Origin: Desulfocapsa sp.
GTDB lineage: Bacteria; Desulfobacterota; Desulfobulbia; Desulfobulbales; Desulfocapsaceae
Direction: 5' to 3'
Length of the DNA: 56,106 nt
Assembly (NCBI GenBank): GCA_013792135.1
Contig: VMSP01000088.1
Location: 1 to 56,106, forward strand
Below the pieces are notes generated by a model. The model ran no database searches, was not told where the DNA came from, and saw nothing but the letters and a program-made list of their open reading frames with translations. The position numbers and the translations under genes are program-made. Shown one piece after another: positions 29,369-45,683 of the stretch (its first letter is position 1; each line of letters begins with the position of its first letter).

Positions 29369-29998
29369 TCAGAACGGACCAACCACCTTATCGGCGCTGG
29401 CCATGCTGTCCAGAATCTCATACATATTGGTGATTGTCCCCACCTGCAGATTCTTTTCCAGTTTGAAAAACTCAAGGCAGGTGCCGCAGGACAAGATCTT
29501 CACCCCTTTTTTCTCCAGGGCCTGCAGGGCCTCGAGGGCCTTACCCCCAGTCGCCACCAACTTGACCCCGCCATTATAAAAAAGAATCCGGCTGGGTTGA
29601 GGTGAGATCTCCTTGATAGTGGCAATATAGGTCTGCAACAAGGCCCATCCCAACTCATCACTGCCCCGCCCCATGGAGTCGGAAGCAATTACATAGACCA
29701 GATTGCACTCAGTCGATACTCCGCCTGGAATAGCACAGCTGTAATCAACCTCATCAAAAGGCACAGACGACTCCACCCCTTCCTGCTTATCTACCGGAAA
29801 ACTCAGGAGAAAAGAGCCATCTATTAGTGTTGTCAACTCCACCGGGCAATTCCGGCTATGACCAAAACGCAAGACATTATCCCTTGAGGCCTCATTATCG
29901 ACAAGAATCTCAAATGATCCCACGCCCTCTTCCAGCGCAGCCTTGGCCCTTAACACCGGTTCCGGACACGCCAAGCCTCTACAGTCAATCTGCTTCAT
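29369..29998 (-). CDS. yedF: YedF: TusA-like plus DsrE-like sulfur/selenium protein
   Basis: Protein of 209 residues. It starts with a TusA/SirA domain carrying the sulfur-relay motif CRGLACPEPV (residues 5-14), followed by a DsrE-like domain (~95-205) with SDSMGRGSDELGW and LSCGTCLEFF. This fusion is the family called selenium metabolism protein YedF, usually found with selenium utilisation genes. GAGG lies five bases before the ATG. The divergent gene is a LysR regulator of the type associated with selenium metabolism, supporting the assignment. The cysteines probably carry persulfide or selenium; the biochemical role of YedF is not settled. Confidence 0.9.
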   Translation of the reverse strand: MKQIDCRGLACPEPVLRAKAALEEGVGSFEILVDNEASRDNVLRFGHSRNCPVELTTLIDGSFLLSFPVDKQEGVESSVPFDEVDYSCAIPGGVSTECNLVYVIASDSMGRGSDELGWALLQTYIATIKEISPQPSRILFYNGGVKLVATGGKALEALQALEKKGVKILSCGTCLEFFKLEKNLQVGTITNMYEILDSMASADKVVGPF

Positions 29999-37585: not shown

Positions 37586-38398
37586 TCATACACGACAGGC
37601 CTCCCATCCCAGCATCGCTTTTTTACGGCTGCTTCCCCAACGATATTGTGAGATCTCCCCTGATTTTCTGATCACCCGATGACAGGGGATCAAATAGCCT
37701 ATAGGATTTGCAGCAACGGCGCTGGCAACGGCCCGACAGGCAGTGGGATGTCCCACCTGAACGGCAAGATCCTGATAACTGATCATGGCACCACTGGGAA
37801 TAGCCAGCAGCGCCTGCCAGACCTTCAGCTGAAAGGCTGTTCCCTTGACCAGCAACTGCCAAGGAGCAGGAAGCTCAGTATCGATGGGCGCGAATACCTG
37901 CTCCACCACATGGCCTCCATCCTCTTCCTCATCAGCAATGATCGTTGCCTGCTGCCACTTTTTATACAACTCTTGCCGATGCAACTGCCATTCCCCCCTA
38001 TCAACAAAGGAGAGATGACAGATCTCCCGGCCGCTCATAGCCAGTAGGCAGTCACCAAATGGACTGGGATAGAAACCGTATTTGATGTTCAACTCCGCCC
38101 CCTGTTCCGGTCCAGCTGGAAGTATTTTCAATTGACAACACAGTGTCGGCAGCAGCGAAGCGGCAAGTAGGTTTCTGCTCTCCATCATCCTCTTCCTTGT
38201 TTGGCTGCTGGTCAAACACCTCATAAACCAACTCAAATCAACACCTGCCCACCGTTCAAAGAGGGTGTCCAACTCGTCCTTACCCAAACCCACTCTGGCC
38301 GCAAGCCCCTTCACCCCCGAATGGTCCCATACCTTCTCATCAAAGGCATGAATGGCTAAATCAATATATCTATATTCTGCTGTGTTCAAAATATTCAC
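37586..38398 (-). CDS. Ada/Ogt-like O6-methylguanine-DNA methyltransferase
   Basis: Suicide DNA-repair protein of 270 residues that takes the alkyl group from O6-alkylguanine. The C-terminal methyltransferase domain (~180-268) has FQLKVWQALLAIPSGAMISY and the acceptor cysteine in IPCHRVI. The N-terminal ~75 residues look like a shortened AraC-type helix-turn-helix (LAARVGLGKDELDTLFERWAGV), and the middle is the usual methyltransferase N-domain. It lacks the zinc-binding Ada N-terminal domain, so it cannot act as a full Ada sensor. It starts with GTG preceded by GGGAG. Confidence 0.88.
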   Translation of the reverse strand: MNILNTAEYRYIDLAIHAFDEKVWDHSGVKGLAARVGLGKDELDTLFERWAGVDLSWFMRCLTSSQTRKRMMESRNLLAASLLPTLCCQLKILPAGPEQGAELNIKYGFYPSPFGDCLLAMSGREICHLSFVDRGEWQLHRQELYKKWQQATIIADEEEDGGHVVEQVFAPIDTELPAPWQLLVKGTAFQLKVWQALLAIPSGAMISYQDLAVQVGHPTACRAVASAVAANPIGYLIPCHRVIRKSGEISQYRWGSSRKKAMLGWEACRV

Positions 38399-38663
38399 AA
38401 TGCTCCCATGAAGATGCCGGGGTTAAAGACCTCGTCAGCAAGAGTTACAGCTCGTTATTTCGCCTTTGGACCATATGTTTTTTTACAAAGGAATCCCACC
38501 TACTTTACTTCAATTTCACTCAATAACCAAACATCTTGAACCCGATAACACAACTCAACTCCATAGAAATTTTCTATTTTACAGTTTGAGACATTCCTAT
38601 TAATTATCTTCTCGAATTCAATCTATTATTGTTACCAATAAAAATGAACAAGGAGAAAAGAGT

Positions 38664-39086
38664 ATGAAAAAACGAATTGCGATTCTGGCTGTGCTGATTA
38701 TCGGGCTGCTCAATATGGCTGCCCTGCTTGAAAGTTTCAACTATGTCAAGGCCGATGATTTCAAGCAGTGGCTTGACTCCGGCAAGGCCATGGTCCTGGT
38801 CGATATTCAGGTCAAGAATGAATTCTCGCTCCATCATTTTAAAGATTCCATTGAAACCAACGCCTTTCCAGTAGAGACAGAAGAGCAGCGGAAGATGCTC
38901 AACCCTGCGGTCGCCGGGGCCAAAAAAGCGGGTACCGATGTGGTGGTGATCTGTCCACGGGGTGGCGGGGGAGCGAAAAGATGTTACAGTTATCTCAAGG
39001 CCCAGGGAATTCCTGAGGAAAAACTCTTTATTCTCGAAGGAGGTATTGCAAAATGGCCTCACAAAGAGATGCTGGTGAGCCGTTAA
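38664..39086 (+). CDS. Exported or membrane-anchored rhodanese-like protein
   Basis: Protein of 140 residues with an N-terminal hydrophobic segment (residues 5-22) acting as signal or anchor, so the rhodanese fold (~27-138) lies outside the cytoplasm. The active-site loop carries the cysteine in VVICPRGGGGAKR, whose Cys would hold a persulfide. AAGGAG lies before the ATG. It opens a plus-strand run of redox and sulfur genes (iron-sulfur protein, YedE, TusA, kinase), so it may supply or accept sulfane sulfur at the periplasmic side. The substrate is not known. Confidence 0.85.
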   Translation: MKKRIAILAVLIIGLLNMAALLESFNYVKADDFKQWLDSGKAMVLVDIQVKNEFSLHHFKDSIETNAFPVETEEQRKMLNPAVAGAKKAGTDVVVICPRGGGGAKRCYSYLKAQGIPEEKLFILEGGIAKWPHKEMLVSR

Positions 39087-39158
39087 AAACCGATTATCTT
39101 TTCTATGAAAACCTCTGTACAGAAAATTTGAACCAACCTTCTTGGTACAGATTCAATA

Positions 39159-40271
39159 ATGAAAGATACTCTTTATCATCAGGCACAGGTCCTGCATCAG
39201 GAATGTACCCGCTGTCAGGCCTGTGTCACCCAATGCGCTTTTCTCCAGGAAAACGGCACACCAGGTGACATTGCCGCATCTTTGCTGGCTGGTGACTCCA
39301 CAGTCAATTCCTTTGAATGCAGCCTGTGCAATCTATGCGCAGCTCTCTGTCCAGCCAAAATTGCGCCAGGGAATTTATTTCTGGAGATGCGCCGGCAAGT
39401 CATGGCCCAGGATAAACTCCCGTCCAAGCGTTATACTTCCATCCTCAAATATGAACGCCGCGGCAGTTCCCGGCTCTTTTCCTGGTACGGCCTCCCTTCG
39501 GGCTGCGATACTGTCTTCTTTCCGGGCTGCACCCTGCCCGGCACCAGACCCGAGACCACATGGCAGCTCTATCAGCAACTCCATGAACAGATCCCGCATC
39601 TTGGCGTGGTCCTGGATTGCTGCCATAAACCCTCCCATGATCTTGGACGCCAGCAATCTTTTCTGACTTGGTTCGATGATATGCGAGACTGGTTGATCAG
39701 GCATGGTGTCCGCAATATTATTGTGGCCTGCCCTAACTGTTACAAGGTCTTTCATGGTTACGGCCAGGGACTAAGCGTACGGACTGCCTGGGAAATTCTT
39801 GCTGAGACAAACATCAATTCCCCCTATCCTGCCATTGCGCGTTGGCAAATTACCATACACGATCCATGCCCCTTGCGTGACCATCAGGATGTGCACCAGG
39901 CAGTGCGGACGATCTTGTCCCGCCTTGGGCTGAAGGTGCGGGAGATGCGACATTCAGGAAATCGCGCCATCTGCTGCGGGGAGGGTGGTTTTGTAGGTTT
40001 GATCAATCCTGACATGGCCAGAAAATGGGGTGATATCCGTAAAGTTGAGGCTGGTGCAGATCTGGTAATTACCTACTGCGCCGGATGCGCCGGATTTCTG
40101 GCCAGCGCCGGAATGAAGGTAGTCCATCTGAGCGACCTGCTGGTCAACCCTGCAAAAGCCCTTTCCGGGAAGGCATCAGTTGCCAGAGCTCCCAGAACCT
40201 ATCTCAACCGGATCAAACTTAAAAAAAGAATGCAAAGACAATTGGCCAGCTCTTTCGACAAGAGTCGATAA
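39159..40271 (+). CDS. Iron-sulfur oxidoreductase with two 4Fe-4S and CCG domains
   Basis: Cytoplasmic protein of 370 residues related to HdrD, GlpC and LutA-type reductases. Two 4Fe-4S motifs (CTRCQACVTQC and CSLCNLCAALCP) sit within the first 70 residues. Two Cys-rich domains follow: FFPGCTLPGT with DCCHKP, and AICCGEGGFVG with TYCAGCAGF. This is the pattern of the non-cubane cluster site in heterodisulfide reductases. Such proteins pass electrons between a membrane or flavin partner and a disulfide. It lies 73 bases after the rhodanese gene. A role in disulfide, trisulfide or persulfide reduction is a fair guess from context, not shown. Confidence 0.85.
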   Translation: MKDTLYHQAQVLHQECTRCQACVTQCAFLQENGTPGDIAASLLAGDSTVNSFECSLCNLCAALCPAKIAPGNLFLEMRRQVMAQDKLPSKRYTSILKYERRGSSRLFSWYGLPSGCDTVFFPGCTLPGTRPETTWQLYQQLHEQIPHLGVVLDCCHKPSHDLGRQQSFLTWFDDMRDWLIRHGVRNIIVACPNCYKVFHGYGQGLSVRTAWEILAETNINSPYPAIARWQITIHDPCPLRDHQDVHQAVRTILSRLGLKVREMRHSGNRAICCGEGGFVGLINPDMARKWGDIRKVEAGADLVITYCAGCAGFLASAGMKVVHLSDLLVNPAKALSGKASVARAPRTYLNRIKLKKRMQRQLASSFDKSR

Positions 40272-40414
40272 TAAATTTACATACAATACATGAACTTTCA
40301 TAAAAAAATAATTTATTAGCCTTTAACACCCGCGGATATGTTATATTTTTGCTTTCCTGTTTATATTTATATAAAATTCAGGTAGTCAAAAATTCTGAAA
40401 GATCAATTCCGCTG

Positions 40415-41557
40415 ATGATAACTGATTCAACATTTCTTCTGTATGCAGCTGGAAGTCTTATTGGACTTCTGGCCGGATTCCTCATGCACCGCTCTGATTA
40501 TTGTGTTGCCGGCATGTTCCGTGATACTTTTCTATTCAGAAACACCTTCATGCTGCGGTCTTTATGCATACAAGTTACTGCAACAATAATTTTTTTTGAA
40601 TTTTCAAGAATATTCGGCCTGTTACCTCTTTACCCCTTTCCTCTTCTGGGCTTTGCCTCCGCAGCCAATACAATTGGCGGATTTATTTTTGGCATCGGTA
40701 TGGTGATGGCCGGCGGCTGTGTAGTGGGAACACTCTATAAAATGGGTGCTGGCAGCGTTATCAGTATTGTTGCCTTTATCGGAATAATTGCCGGCAGCGC
40801 TCTTTACGGAGAAATTCATCCATGGTGGGCCTCTTTTGTTAAAGCAACAACATTTTTTCCCTCAGTTAAAACCCTGCCCGAGCTTTTCGGGATTAATCCC
40901 GCACTACTTCTTCTCCCTCTAGCAGCCATTGCAACAATAATATTGTTAAAATTGCACAAACAAAATAAAATTATTAGACAGAGTGAAGTTAAAGGTTATA
41001 TTCAGCCTTGGAAGACTGCGATAGCTCTTGCACTGCTCGGTCTTTTTTCCTATATTCTTGTTGGTATGCCTCTTGGCATAACGACGACTTATGCAAAAAT
41101 TGCGGCAATGCTTGAAACCCTGTTTATTCCTGAGCACATCAGCAATACCAGTTTTTTTCAGCTCATCCCCTTTCATATTACCCACCCGTCCACCGGGGCA
41201 TTACTTCAGGGAGGGCCAGGACCACAAATCGATTCCATATGGGTAATCCAATTTCCCATTATTGCAGGTATTGTTCTCGGCAGTGCATTATCAGCAATAC
41301 TTTTAGGAGAATTTTCCATCCAATACAAAGTGCCCCTGAAACAAATCTTCATGGCTTTATCCGGCGGCATTCTCCTTGGGCTTTCTTCAAGGATGTCTCC
41401 GGGATGTAATGTGTGGCATTTAATGGGCGGACTCCCTATTCTTGCCCTGCAAAGCCTGTTGTTTCTCCTTGGACTTATTCCTGGCACTTGGGTTGGCAGC
41501 AAGGTTATTACCCATATTATTTTAAAACAACCAATGCGACCAACAGGAAAGAGCTGA
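40415..41557 (+). CDS. YeeE/YedE-family sulfur transporter
   Basis: Polytopic inner-membrane protein of 380 residues with about nine or ten membrane segments. It shows the internally repeated motif with conserved cysteines seen in TsuA/YeeE (HRSDYCVAGMFRD, MAGGCVVGTLYKMGAGS and later SRMSPGCNVWHLMGG). The family imports thiosulfate or related sulfur compounds using a cysteine relay. Its TGA overlaps the ATG of the tusA-like gene by one base (TGATG), so transporter and sulfur carrier are coupled. Start at 40415 is chosen because the first membrane segment begins right after it; an in-frame start at 40349 would add a non-hydrophobic 22 residues. Confidence 0.9.
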   Translation: MITDSTFLLYAAGSLIGLLAGFLMHRSDYCVAGMFRDTFLFRNTFMLRSLCIQVTATIIFFEFSRIFGLLPLYPFPLLGFASAANTIGGFIFGIGMVMAGGCVVGTLYKMGAGSVISIVAFIGIIAGSALYGEIHPWWASFVKATTFFPSVKTLPELFGINPALLLLPLAAIATIILLKLHKQNKIIRQSEVKGYIQPWKTAIALALLGLFSYILVGMPLGITTTYAKIAAMLETLFIPEHISNTSFFQLIPFHITHPSTGALLQGGPGPQIDSIWVIQFPIIAGIVLGSALSAILLGEFSIQYKVPLKQIFMALSGGILLGLSSRMSPGCNVWHLMGGLPILALQSLLFLLGLIPGTWVGSKVITHIILKQPMRPTGKS

Positions 41558-41829
41558 TGAATGACCTGGAAACACAAAAAATAATCAACATTGACATGCG
41601 GGGTCAGGTTTGTCCTGCCTGCCTTCTTGTCGCCATGGATACGTTGAACAGACACAAAGAGGCCCTCAAAAATGGCTCGGAGACATTGTCTATTAAAACT
41701 GATAACCGAGAAGCGACTACCACTATTCCCATAACGGCCAAAAATATGGGCTACTCTGTCACTGTCACCAAAATAGGTTCTTTTTATCAGATCTGTATCG
41801 GTTTTTTTACCCCGGAAAACAAAAAATAA
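41557..41829 (+). CDS. TusA-family sulfur carrier protein
   Basis: Small cytoplasmic protein of 90 residues with the TusA fold. The motif is CPACLL (Cys of MRGQVCPACLL) in place of the more usual CPxP, giving a second cysteine three residues on. TusA proteins carry sulfur as a persulfide on the first cysteine; next to a YedE transporter they are thought to accept imported sulfur. Its start overlaps the yedE stop and its stop overlaps the kinase start (TAATG), so three genes are read in tight coupling. Confidence 0.88.
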   Translation: MNDLETQKIINIDMRGQVCPACLLVAMDTLNRHKEALKNGSETLSIKTDNREATTTIPITAKNMGYSVTVTKIGSFYQICIGFFTPENKK

Positions 41830-44063
41830 TGAGTTTAGAAAAAATTCTTCAATCAGCAGCCTACATCAAAGAGAATCCAGCCTCTCCTCTCCTTCCAATT
41901 AGTACTGACGCTAAGTTCGCACCTGTCACATATTTTTTAAATGAGTTACTGGAAGAAAACCGATCTCTTCGCCAAAACAATGAGACAGCGTTTCACTATA
42001 TTCGGCAGAAAATTGACCAGCTTCTCCTGGTCATCGGAACAATTCCACTGCGTCCAGAAGAACTCGACAATGCAACCATTATCCAATTGGACCCCATCGG
42101 TATAATAGCAGAATCTTTTACGCAGATACTTGATCATCAGCGCCAGATAAACGACCAACTCGAGCTGGCCATGGATGAGATCCAGGCAATTTTCAAGTCT
42201 GTTGGTGGTGGAATTCTTGTTGTGGACAGCAACAAGAAAATTATTTCCTACAATCGAAAACTCGAACAGATGTTCGACATCAAAGAAGACCAAACTTCTG
42301 ATTTGTCATGCTCAGATATCATCTGTAAAGGGCACCCCCCGGGCCTATGTCTTTTCGACGAGATGCTTAAAACAGGACGGACGGTTTCGATGTCTACTGG
42401 TTGTCCCCAAGACACAAGACACTACAGTATCGTCATCACGCCGATTAAAGACAGAAATGACAAAATTGTCCGGGCTGTCCTACTTTATATTGATATAACC
42501 GAACTGATAGAGATTAAAGAAGCTGTTGCCAATGAAAAAGAACGCCTTTCATTGACCCTGAAAAGTATTGCTGAAGGAGTAGTGGCAACGGACTCTACAG
42601 GCTCCACAACCCTCATGAACGAAGTCGCAGAGGAACTGACAGGATGGTCTCTTGGCGAGGCCATGGGCAAACCTGCCTGTCAAATCCTTAATATTCAAAA
42701 AAGAAGCGAGACGCATTCATGCTCAAACATTTTTAAAGATATCCTCAGTAAAGACTCCACGTTCCAACGAGTAAGCCAGACTGTTCTCATTTCAAAAAAC
42801 GGCAAAGAACGACTGATAACTCTCAGCGCGGCTCCCATACGAAGGGAGGAACAATCTTCACCAACTGGATCCATTATTGTTTTTCGAGACATTACCCAGG
42901 AAAAAAATATGGAAATGGAACGTATCCGCTCCCAAAGAATAGAATCCCTGGGCATTGTGGCGGGTGGAATTGCCCATGACTTTAACAACCTGCTGACTGC
43001 AATTCTGGGAAATATCTCTCTGGCAAGAAGAATGGCAAAGGACAATGATGCAATTTCCACACTTCTTGCTGAGACTGAAAAAGCCTCTTCCCGGGCCAAG
43101 AACCTGACCAGTCAACTGCTGACTTTTGCCAAAGGCGGAGCCCCTGTGACGACTCTCACTTCAACACGAAAGCTCATCGAGGAATCAGCAAAATTCTCCA
43201 GCAGCGGTTCAAACATTAAATGCCATTTTGACATTGCCGATGATTTATGGCAGGTCGAAATTGATGAGGGGCAAATCGGACAGGTTATCCAGAATCTTGT
43301 TATCAATGCCGGCCAAGCCATGAAACATGGAGGAGCAGTTGACATCGGTGCCGAGAATATCATCATTGACCCAAATGATGATATTTCACTCACGCCTGGT
43401 AAATATATAAAAATATATGTCAAAGATAAAGGTGAGGGAATTGCGAATCAATATCTCGACAAAATTTTTGACCCCTATTTCACAACAAAAGAAACAGGGC
43501 ATGGGCTTGGCTTATCAATCTGTTACTCAATCATCAAGAGACATAGCGGCCTTATCTCCGTTGCCTCAGAACAAGGAGCAGGTTCAACTTTTTCTCTCTA
43601 CCTGCCTGCAGCAGATCAGCAACTGCGTGAACAATCACAGCAAAACGCACCGACTGAAACAACAGAAAAGATATTATCGGGACAGGGGAAACTGCTTATC
43701 ATGGATGATGAACAAATTATCAGAGAGGTGGCTTCACAGATGCTCACTTATCTTGGCTACAGTGTTGAACTCGCAGCCGATGGGGAGGAGGCTTTACAAA
43801 AGTACCGCCAGGCTTTTGACCAAGGAGCACCTTTTGATGCCGTGATTATGGATCTAACCATCCCAGACGGGATGGGAGGCAAAGAAGCAATAGAACATCT
43901 TCTTCGAATTGACCCTGAAATTAAGGCTATTGTCTCCAGCGGATATGCCAATGATCCAATAATGGCTAATTTCAAAGATTATGGATTTCAAGGTGTCATG
44001 CCCAAGCCTTTCAGCATGGAAGAAGCCAGTAACACTCTGAAAAAAGTATTAACCAAAAGCTGA
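41829..44063 (+). CDS. Soluble PAS-PAS hybrid histidine kinase in sulfur operon
   Basis: Cytoplasmic kinase of 744 residues with no membrane segments. An N-terminal helical region (~1-115) precedes PAS 1 (~118-228), with cysteines at 161, 166, 174 and 192, and PAS 2 (~235-355). HisKA has H383 in GIAHDFNN, the ATPase domain has DKGEGI and GHGLGLS, and a C-terminal receiver has D675 in VIMDLTIPD. The start codon overlaps the tusA stop codon. As it is translated with a sulfur transporter and a sulfur carrier, it probably senses sulfur state, perhaps by persulfidation of the PAS 1 cysteines or contact with TusA (inference). No DNA-binding partner is next to it, so the output is unknown. Confidence 0.9.
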   Translation: MSLEKILQSAAYIKENPASPLLPISTDAKFAPVTYFLNELLEENRSLRQNNETAFHYIRQKIDQLLLVIGTIPLRPEELDNATIIQLDPIGIIAESFTQILDHQRQINDQLELAMDEIQAIFKSVGGGILVVDSNKKIISYNRKLEQMFDIKEDQTSDLSCSDIICKGHPPGLCLFDEMLKTGRTVSMSTGCPQDTRHYSIVITPIKDRNDKIVRAVLLYIDITELIEIKEAVANEKERLSLTLKSIAEGVVATDSTGSTTLMNEVAEELTGWSLGEAMGKPACQILNIQKRSETHSCSNIFKDILSKDSTFQRVSQTVLISKNGKERLITLSAAPIRREEQSSPTGSIIVFRDITQEKNMEMERIRSQRIESLGIVAGGIAHDFNNLLTAILGNISLARRMAKDNDAISTLLAETEKASSRAKNLTSQLLTFAKGGAPVTTLTSTRKLIEESAKFSSSGSNIKCHFDIADDLWQVEIDEGQIGQVIQNLVINAGQAMKHGGAVDIGAENIIIDPNDDISLTPGKYIKIYVKDKGEGIANQYLDKIFDPYFTTKETGHGLGLSICYSIIKRHSGLISVASEQGAGSTFSLYLPAADQQLREQSQQNAPTETTEKILSGQGKLLIMDDEQIIREVASQMLTYLGYSVELAADGEEALQKYRQAFDQGAPFDAVIMDLTIPDGMGGKEAIEHLLRIDPEIKAIVSSGYANDPIMANFKDYGFQGVMPKPFSMEEASNTLKKVLTKS

Positions 44064-44156
44064 ATCTTCGTATTACCGTTACCGCCTCTACACGACATCA
44101 GCGCGCGGTTGTCGACAAAGTATGTTCCTTTCGCACGGAATATCTTGATCAGTATC

Positions 44157-44201
44157 TTTCATCCATAACCACCGGCTGAAGCCTGTGGCCATGGATGAAA
44201 C
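44157..44201. repeat. REP-like 45-base hairpin
   Basis: TTTCATCCAT and ATGGATGAAA form a perfect ten-base outer stem. Inside it CCAC-c-GGCT-GA-AGCC-t-GTGG gives a second stem with one opposed base pair break. It lies between the convergent kinase and htrA genes with no T run on either side, so it looks like a repetitive extragenic palindrome more than a terminator. Confidence 0.55.
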
Positions 44202-44213
44202 CTGAGCCCACTC

Positions 44214-45683
44214 CTATTTCACTCCCAGAACCACATAGTAACTGCGGTTACCGCTGCGGATCAAAAGGAGAACATCCTGGGTGTCGCCGCTTTTCTGCAG
44301 AACCCGTTGCAGCTCCTTGAGGCTCTGCACAGGTTGCCGGTTAACCTCTTCGATCAGACTACCCACCTGAATACGGGCCAGCGCCGCAGGACTGCCAGGT
44401 GTCACCCCGGCAATAAGGACGCCCTGCCCCTTGGCATAGCCAAACTGACGGGCCAGCTCAGGGGTCAGATCCTGAAGCGACATCCCCATCTTCTGAAAAA
44501 GCTCATGTTGCTCGGGAGCACCCGACAGGGTTTTCATGTCAGATGGCTGCTCCGCAACCTGGACGGTCAGCTCCTGCTGTTTTCCCTGGCGAATAAGGAC
44601 AAGATCAACCTTGGTACCGGGAGGGGTCATGGACACCCGATTGCGCAGATCCGTCACATCGACCACCGGCATGCCGTCAAAGCTGATAACAAGATCACCC
44701 TGTTTGATTCCGGCCTTTTCCGCCGGAGAGTCCTTGCTGACCTCACTCACCAGAGCCCCCGACTTCTCCTTCAGTTTGAAGGAACGGGCAAGATCAGCAG
44801 TCATATCCTGAATAGCCACTCCCAGCCAGCTCCGGGTGACCTTGCCCTTTGCCAGCAGCTGACCCTTCACCGTCTTGGCCATATTGACCGGAATAGCAAA
44901 GCCGATACCCATATATCCGCCGCTGCGGGAAAAGATCGCCGTATTGATGCCGATCACCTCTCCATAGATATTCAGCAGCGGCCCACCGGAATTGCCAGGA
45001 TTGATGGCAGCATCGGTCTGGATAAAATTTTCATACTCATTAATGCCCATGCGGTTCCTGCCCTTGGCACTCACCACGCCGACCGTCACCGTGCTATCCA
45101 GACCAAAAGGACTGCCAATGGCAATAACCCATTCCCCCACCTCCAGTTGATCGGAATCACCCAACGGAAGATAGGGAAATTTACGGCCGTCACTGATCTT
45201 GATCAGGGCAACATCAGACTGCGGATCGGTACCTATCACCTTTCCCTCCAGCTCCTGATCACCTTGCAGGCGCACGGTGATCTTGTCGGCGTTCTCAATA
45301 ACATGATTATTGGTCAGGATATATCCGTCCTCAGAGATGAGAAAGCCTGAACCCGAAGCCTGAGTCTTAAATTGCTCAGGTTGTTGAGGAGTGGATGGAG
45401 GCCTGAAGGATGGGCCAAAAAAATGCTGAAAAAATGGATCATCAAAGGGATTAAACTGATTCCCGGGAGCCATCTCTCCTTTCTTTTCTACCCGCACATG
45501 CACAACCGCCGGTTCTGCCTTTTTGACCACAGAGGAAAAAGCCTTGGCCGATTTGTCCAGAAGCTGGATATTTTCATCCTCGGCCGCCATGCTGTTTGCC
45601 GGGAGCCAGGAGAGGCTTAGCATAAAGATTAAAAGAAGAAGAATAGGCAAGGGTGCAATCAGTAGTCGTGTTTTTCTTTTCAT
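44214..45683 (-). CDS. HtrA/DegP-family periplasmic serine protease
   Basis: Periplasmic quality-control protease of 489 residues. A signal peptide (~1-33) is followed by a trypsin-like domain with H127 (TNNHVI), D157 (QSDVALI) and S232 (GNSGGPL), then two PDZ domains (~265-365 and ~390-485). This is the Do/DegQ layout and normal length. The Shine-Dalgarno sequence AAGGAGGT is strong. It lies downstream of the Bat operon on the same strand, separated by a 102-bp dispersed repeat, so it may be cotranscribed or have its own promoter. Envelope stress response fits both. Confidence 0.94.
   Translation of the reverse strand: MKRKTRLLIAPLPILLLLIFMLSLSWLPANSMAAEDENIQLLDKSAKAFSSVVKKAEPAVVHVRVEKKGEMAPGNQFNPFDDPFFQHFFGPSFRPPSTPQQPEQFKTQASGSGFLISEDGYILTNNHVIENADKITVRLQGDQELEGKVIGTDPQSDVALIKISDGRKFPYLPLGDSDQLEVGEWVIAIGSPFGLDSTVTVGVVSAKGRNRMGINEYENFIQTDAAINPGNSGGPLLNIYGEVIGINTAIFSRSGGYMGIGFAIPVNMAKTVKGQLLAKGKVTRSWLGVAIQDMTADLARSFKLKEKSGALVSEVSKDSPAEKAGIKQGDLVISFDGMPVVDVTDLRNRVSMTPPGTKVDLVLIRQGKQQELTVQVAEQPSDMKTLSGAPEQHELFQKMGMSLQDLTPELARQFGYAKGQGVLIAGVTPGSPAALARIQVGSLIEEVNRQPVQSLKELQRVLQKSGDTQDVLLLIRSGNRSYYVVLGVK

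Follow-up and report, generated by a model that had tools for sequence, protein, structure and literature searches.

A yedE-tusA-sensor gene unit of Desulfobacterota in which a TusA variant is paired with a conserved N-terminal head and varying signalling outputs

TsuA-TsuB (YeeE-YeeD) is a thiosulfate uptake system, the TusA family (PF01206) has the CPxP motif as its hallmark, and FisR is a sigma-54-dependent regulator; the sensing of intermediate sulfur compounds by bacteria of the reductive sulfur cycle is, to our knowledge, little known. The present work concerns three consecutive genes, yedE, tusA and a hybrid histidine kinase, in a 56,106-nucleotide stretch of Desulfocapsa sp. (assembly GCA_013792135.1, contig VMSP01000088.1; contig C138 of this 4.2 Mb assembly), hereafter the window. 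These genes form a unit kept in relatives, in which a TusA variant goes together with a segment, the head, at the N-terminus of a signalling protein whose output varies; the pairing is written in the genome itself, that of the cultured Desulfurivibrio alkaliphilus included. Like TsuA-TsuB, the unit combines a transporter with aligned cysteines and a TusA-family partner, but it scores below the curated values for TsuA and TsuB, has lost CPxP and has gained a signalling protein. Genomes, contigs and loci are designated G, C and L.

In Hyphomicrobium denitrificans, the YeeE-family transporters SoxT1A (metabolic) and SoxT1B (signalling) are separate, and TusA is discussed as a possible sulfur donor to the regulator, the hand-over being left open (PMC11582611). 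The present unit resembles SoxT1B-SoxR in that a YeeE-family transporter would be reserved for signalling beside a metabolic one, whereas SoxR is an ArsR-type repressor (PMC11582611) and our unit includes a gene for the carrier and has a kinase, a kinase-NtrC pair or cyclic di-GMP enzymes as outputs; the terms 'histidine kinase', 'sensor kinase' and 'two-component' are absent from the main text of that report, and no ArsR-type SoxR gene adjoins the transporter among the window genes between 37586 and 45683. In Bacillus licheniformis, the two-component system NreBC controls sulfide oxidation and, as here, its sulfur gene cluster also codes for a TusA homologue and a rhodanese-like protein; unlike in our case, 'YeeE' is absent from the text and the reported signal, answered by NreB, is sulfide (PMC9918477). 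FisR, a persulfide-sensing regulator (PMC7315123), likewise brings a sulfane sulfur signal to a sigma-54 activator, but there the activator itself senses, whereas the sister form described below places a TusA-paired kinase before an NtrC-type activator. Lastly, yedE adjoins tusA, in the same bacterial group, in the YTD or yedE-tusA-dsrEFH type II clusters, which differ in having a dsrE-like gene and two more genes where our unit has the signalling protein (PMC13293266, PMC13047784, PMC12998232); no dsrE-like gene with two further small genes stands beside yedE-tusA in the window unit. No report of a kinase beside yedE-tusA was found in the open-licence literature, supplements aside, and the word 'kinase' is absent from the main texts of PMC13293266, PMC13047784, PMC12998232 (word-start search) and PMC5516251. 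The published YeeE-linked signalling found in these sources uses an ArsR-type repressor (PMC11582611); the unit is, with respect to them, a new form of transporter-linked sensing.

The conservation of the unit was analysed from its smallest protein. The TusA of the window alone matched 13 of 58 related genomes, its own included. In a separate scan of genome contigs with this single protein, which finds close relatives only, the nearest relatives in named records bore the labels Desulfobulbaceae, Proteobacteria and Desulfocapsaceae. With a profile built from 15 such TusA proteins (A1, E <= 1e-12), matches were obtained in 34 of the 257 order genomes and in 26 of 395 genomes drawn over the phylum. 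This gave 57 distinct matches, 56 of which were examined (a 46-residue match in G247 was left out, and the named records L014-L020 were equated with the matches in their G genomes where positions or identities agreed). A protein recognised by the kinase profile directly follows tusA on the same strand in 55 of the 56 loci of order and phylum, the exception being G604 (L103/L159), where an equivalent head protein lies upstream of yedE-tusA. As for yedE, 53 loci have it 5' of tusA; it is lacking in L027, in L114 and in L020, which ends at a contig edge. The gene order yedE-tusA-kinase, whose absence from relatives would have spoken against the preliminary description of this DNA, is thus kept, and the linkage is much more than chance would give. 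Three genomes have two copies of the unit (G138, L078/L095; G135, L079/L096; G200, L087/L090), and two of these hold one copy of each output type. Long frames suggesting a TusA-kinase fusion in G549 and G491 proved to be chance extensions 5' of tusA, the genes being separate.

No part of the downstream proteins is kept more constantly than the head, in which Y57, L66, D88 and P89 (window numbering) are invariant in all aligned rows; the preliminary description had overlooked it and stressed the cysteines of the first PAS domain instead. A head profile (A2, 21 rows, E <= 1e-5), searched over the 395 whole genomes of the phylum, matched 27 of them: the 26 genomes that have the TusA variant and, in addition, G348, in which the head stands next to a partial tusA match; a second head match in G378 was read as one gene split between contig ends. 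The hypergeometric probability of an overlap of 26 genomes is 8e-40, a value which assumes independent genomes, which related genomes are not. As a control, 31 of the 56 remaining TusA-family places in 23 genomes were read together with some 1.5 kb of flanking DNA per side; all of them lack a head, and two have a kinase-profile match nearby, one of them strong (303 bits, opposite strand). Pfam and NCBIfam gave no convincing match to the head: stray weak matches among 21 members were to a phage holin in one (E 0.0027), Sigma54_CBD in two (best 0.055) and DUF6617 in one (0.089), and for head plus first PAS domain (PAS1) Sigma54_CBD was weakly matched in 4 of 49 (best 0.0017). An AlphaFold2 model predicts two long helices with the conserved loop between them, running into PAS1 (mean predicted local distance difference test score, pLDDT, 87.7; predicted template modelling score, pTM, 0.63); a Foldseek search with the head and PAS1 model returned PAS/LOV proteins and kinases in the best 50 rows and nothing informative on the head. 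The head is an undescribed segment, paired exclusively with the TusA variant in the genomes searched.

Concerning this TusA variant, which remains within its family by profile score, the catalytic Cys19 is present in 56 of 56 proteins. In the motif, it is followed by Pro, next by Ala or Ser, and then, at position 22, by Cys in 27 proteins, Thr in 21, Ser in seven and Ala in one; proline at position 22 is found in none of the 56. The second thiol which CPAC had been thought to offer (C22) is accordingly restricted to the 27 proteins with Cys at that place. In 23 relatives, PF01206 was found at 63 places, and the seven associated with a head score lowest (37.7-45.1 bits vs. at least 48.8 bits for the others). 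The motif in the 31 control loci is CPxP in 28 and CPMN in two, with no motif match in one; the CPMN genes (L205 and L206) show another departure from CPxP. A search of the PDB with the TusA profile gave no match at 0.001. The genome of the window has four TusA-family genes, among them a YedF-like gene of the window itself (29369-29998, minus strand), which codes for a 209-residue protein with TusA and DsrE domains (Pfam) and a CPEP motif.

What lies behind the head varies. A histidine kinase with a receiver (REC) profile is found in 31 loci (the kinase of L014 is cut by a contig end, and that of L106 is split, as described below), and a histidine kinase without REC, followed by a separate regulator gene, in 15, including L080. 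GGDEF-EAL domains follow the head in L097, L113, L117 and L159, and no output domain does in L099, L101 and L114. These last three code for head-PAS-PAS proteins of about 340 residues, still located beside the TusA variant. In L106 (7293-9416), the kinase gene is in two frames of 437 and 270 residues, by sequencing error or a real break. In a tree of YedE plus TusA with 52 rows (without L020, L027 and L114, where yedE is missing, and L082, where it is short), the kinase plus NtrC form is a single clade with 100/100 support. For GGDEF-EAL, parsimony on the same tree gives three changes over a weak backbone, so that a single origin of this form might still hold.

The kinase plus NtrC loci form the sister operons of the window unit. 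Receiver, sigma-54 activator and Fis domains of their regulator were assigned by Pfam for L026 and by similarity to L026 for the other loci. In all 14 loci with a complete regulator gene (L080, cut by the contig end, being excluded), a sigma-54-type site, TGGCA[CT]N5TTGC, is present on the same strand 87-271 bases after the regulator stop, vs. 21 such sites in the 1,355,494 strand-bases of all loci, those 14 included; the consensus was known beforehand and the pattern was narrowed after a looser scan. The gene following the site is rhodanese-like in 12 of the 14, L098 and L100 having a different protein (Pfam confirmed the call in the two loci L026 and L165, and the search queries came partly from the same loci). 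All 14 proteins have an N-terminus which, judged by eye, resembles a signal or lipoprotein peptide. In Desulfurivibrio alkaliphilus AHT2 (G040), two rhodanese genes are followed in turn by tusA, the kinase, NtrC, the sigma-54-type site, a long rhodanese-like lipoprotein and a protein read as porin-like, the G199 counterpart of which has no Pfam family. In D. dismutans, a YeeE/YedE protein (RS05145), a lipoprotein sulfurtransferase (RS05165) and a porin (RS05170) are reported, RS05145 not being detected in the proteomes, and the spacing of these tags is what the sister-operon order would give (PMC12142623); G199 is probably D. dismutans. A scan for sigma-70 promoter-like sites (16 vs. 9.3 expected) and terminator-like sites (7 vs. 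6.7) was left unused.

That head, TusA variant and YedE occur together while the outputs change appears best explained by a sulfur signal borne by TusA to the head, and we consider it rather probable that the unit is dedicated to sulfur signalling. YedE would carry sulfur through the membrane in the form of thiosulfate or sulfane sulfur; the TusA variant would take it up as a persulfide on Cys19 and, loaded or unloaded, dock on the head of the downstream protein; this docking, together with the three-cysteine PAS domain of most members, would set the activity of the fused output, which in the window is the hybrid kinase. The preliminary description had proposed imported sulfur, or the load state of TusA, as the signal: such a signal is made sensible by the retention in relatives of a unit of importer, TusA and signalling protein, the load of TusA itself remaining a conjecture. 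For the sister form, the output is suggested by the succession of the genes: the kinase would act through the NtrC-type activator that follows it on the sigma-54-type site and thereby, in most loci, on a rhodanese with an export signal, so that sulfur sensing inside the cell may switch on sulfur-handling proteins outside. Correlations between protein distances (TusA-head 0.80, head-YedE 0.70, TusA-YedE 0.54) were left unused, because common descent alone yields such values.

The first alternative concerns PAS1, whose four cysteines had been counted correctly in the preliminary description but given too much weight (the other cysteines of the window kinase are at 284, 298, 465 and 565). Of 54 rows, 47 have C161, C166 and C174 complete, while 9 have a Cys at the place of C192 (L102, at a contig end, is outside these counts). 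In the 49 rows of alignment A3, C166 and C174 are invariant and C161 nearly so, L097, L098, L100, L102, L115 and L116 having been omitted after inspection for a differing or cut PAS1, and L103 having no downstream protein. Given this near-invariance, and a predicted head structure of two helices and a connecting loop that is compatible with a dimerisation pair, PAS1 could be the sensor (through an iron-sulfur cluster, heme or redox thiols), TusA supplying sulfur to build or repair the site and the head serving for dimerisation. We regard this as unlikely: head and TusA stay together in the seven rows that lack some or all of the PAS1 cysteines (L097, L098, L100, L113, L115, L116 and L117), a helix serving for dimerisation alone should not be confined to the neighbourhood of one TusA variant, and three weak PAS relatives of the same genome have cysteines in the same loop on contigs without a TusA gene. 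Because of these seven rows, the PAS1 cysteines were rejected as a universal sensor. PAS domains of the NreB type hold [4Fe-4S] with four cysteines in two CxxC pairs, an arrangement which differs from the C161-x4-C166-x7-C174 of the window with its unconserved fourth Cys.

The transporter itself bears on what is imported. C30, C102 and C331 of the window YedE align with cysteines of Spirochaeta thermophila TsuA (chain 6leo_A), the three relay cysteines of TsuA/YeeE being C22, C91 and C293, and they are invariant in 50, 52 and 53 aligned rows, respectively. The curated scores of the NCBIfam TsuA/YeeE thiosulfate transporter models are not reached (118 bits of 400 and 73.6 of 645), nor are those of the selenium families (104 of 350, 43.9 of 200, 29.7 of 79 and 18.3 of 110 bits). 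The import of selenium instead of sulfur, by a selenium-sensing unit of the YedE/YedF type, would agree with the weak matches to YedE/FdhT (104 bits) and YedF (29.7 bits) and with the YedF-like gene elsewhere in the window; it is nevertheless highly improbable, considering that those matches fall short of their cut-offs, that the TsuA model scores higher (while also below its own cut-off), and that rhodaneses are present in the sister operons.

Two further yedE-tusA sets are present in the same genome (C31 and C53), with a CPMP TusA and small genes in a YTD-like arrangement. No Pfam family was found for four of these small genes, which fits the reported divergence of YTD proteins without proving YTD identity (PMC13047784); the YTD label of both sets would thus follow from their arrangement. 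YTD clusters that contain yedE and tusA have been tied in print to the disproportionation or oxidation of sulfur (PMC13293266, PMC13047784, PMC12998232), which speaks for a metabolic role of the present unit as well; YedE and TusA would then supply sulfur to thiosulfate assimilation or the Dsr pathway, and the kinase would only regulate the operon or related genes through another signal. This is quite improbable, for a third metabolic gene such as YTD clusters have is absent from the unit, the genome already has the two separate sets, and head and TusA variant were never found apart in the 395 genomes while the outputs vary. With CPMP TusA proteins in these two sets, the third set, that of the window, may be left free for signalling. 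The C53 set (L158, 7111-13288) has a sigma-54-like site, TGGAACAGTTGTTGC, about 90 bases 5' of yedE, and its neighbours on the opposite strand code for a membrane kinase and a regulator of the NtrC type; this regulator is the best match (46%) in the genome to the NtrC protein of the sister operons.

Several points weigh against a dedicated TusA-to-head signal. The distribution over order and phylum is patchy, and related genomes are not independent in the pairing counts; both profiles, TusA and head, were built from neighbouring genes, the searches covering whole genomes. A TusA without the CPxP proline could be a weakened sulfur carrier, the PAS1 cysteines are incomplete in 7 of 54 rows, and yedE is not next to tusA in L027 and L114, so that not every unit needs a neighbouring YedE for import. 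Only 17 of the 56 loci have a rhodanese-like gene of any of the kinds sought. No regulator gene lies beside the window kinase, and no full-consensus sigma-54-type site was seen in 14 kb around the window unit. The sister NtrC protein has 26 matches in the genome at E <= 1e-60, and none of them, the best included, is a clear orthologue.

A wider reading, which we advance tentatively and rate slightly below an even chance, is that of a general TusA-reading platform, in which the docking head would read the persulfide load and would have been joined in evolution to two-component, NtrC/sigma-54 and cyclic di-GMP outputs. If so, a sulfur carrier protein would serve as a messenger from a membrane importer to gene control. 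As TusA and sensor are paired in the genome of a cultured species, and the predicted sigma-54 target can be used as a reporter, the question is directly testable.

The features of the window are collected in Table 1.

Table 1. Location of the unit and of its optional upstream neighbours in the window
Feature	Position	Strand	Basis
Rhodanese-domain protein, N-terminal hydrophobic segment (probably exported), optional neighbour	38664-39086	+	Pfam Rhodanese 38.5 bits
CCG/Fer4 iron-sulfur protein (HdrD-like), optional neighbour	39159-40271	+	Pfam CCG, Fer4_8
yedE: YeeE/YedE (TsuA-like) membrane transporter, 380 amino acids	40415-41557	+	Pfam Sulf_transp 176.9 bits
tusA variant, 90 amino acids, motif GQVCPACLL replacing CPxP	41557-41829	+	Pfam TusA 44 bits, cut-off 28.6
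Hybrid kinase, 744 amino acids: head-PAS1-PAS2-HisKA (H383)-HATPase-REC (D675)	41829-44063	+	Pfam
Kinase head segment, residues 52-105	41982-42143	+	Aligned in 55/55 rows; profile searches
PAS1 with C161, C166, C174, C192	42180-42506	+	Pfam PAS_4/PAS_9; Cys counts

The yedE start is the ATG codon, an in-frame TTG lying further upstream at 40349. The window kinase possesses all the parts of a hybrid histidine kinase and is soluble, as stated in the preliminary description, with no strongly hydrophobic stretch (top 19-residue mean of 1.2). The head-to-tail overlaps given there also hold, one base being common to each pair of genes (TGATG and TAATG). That they force coupled synthesis was too strong a claim, because the junctions in 15 relatives run from overlaps to gaps of more than 100 bases, part of this variation stemming from the choice of start codon. 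The exported rhodanese and HdrD-like protein reported upstream on the same strand are present in the window but are optional elsewhere: the complete pair is found in 3 of the 56 loci (the window, L015 and L026), with a fragment of the iron-sulfur gene in L014, in a count for which 46 of the 56 loci have at least 3200 bases before tusA. In the window, 72 bases separate the rhodanese from the iron-sulfur gene and 143 the latter from yedE. As a whole, the series from 37586 to 45683 comprises genes for a methylguanine methyltransferase, the rhodanese, the iron-sulfur protein, yedE, tusA, the kinase and a trypsin/PDZ protease, this last gene lying 3' of the kinase on the opposite strand.

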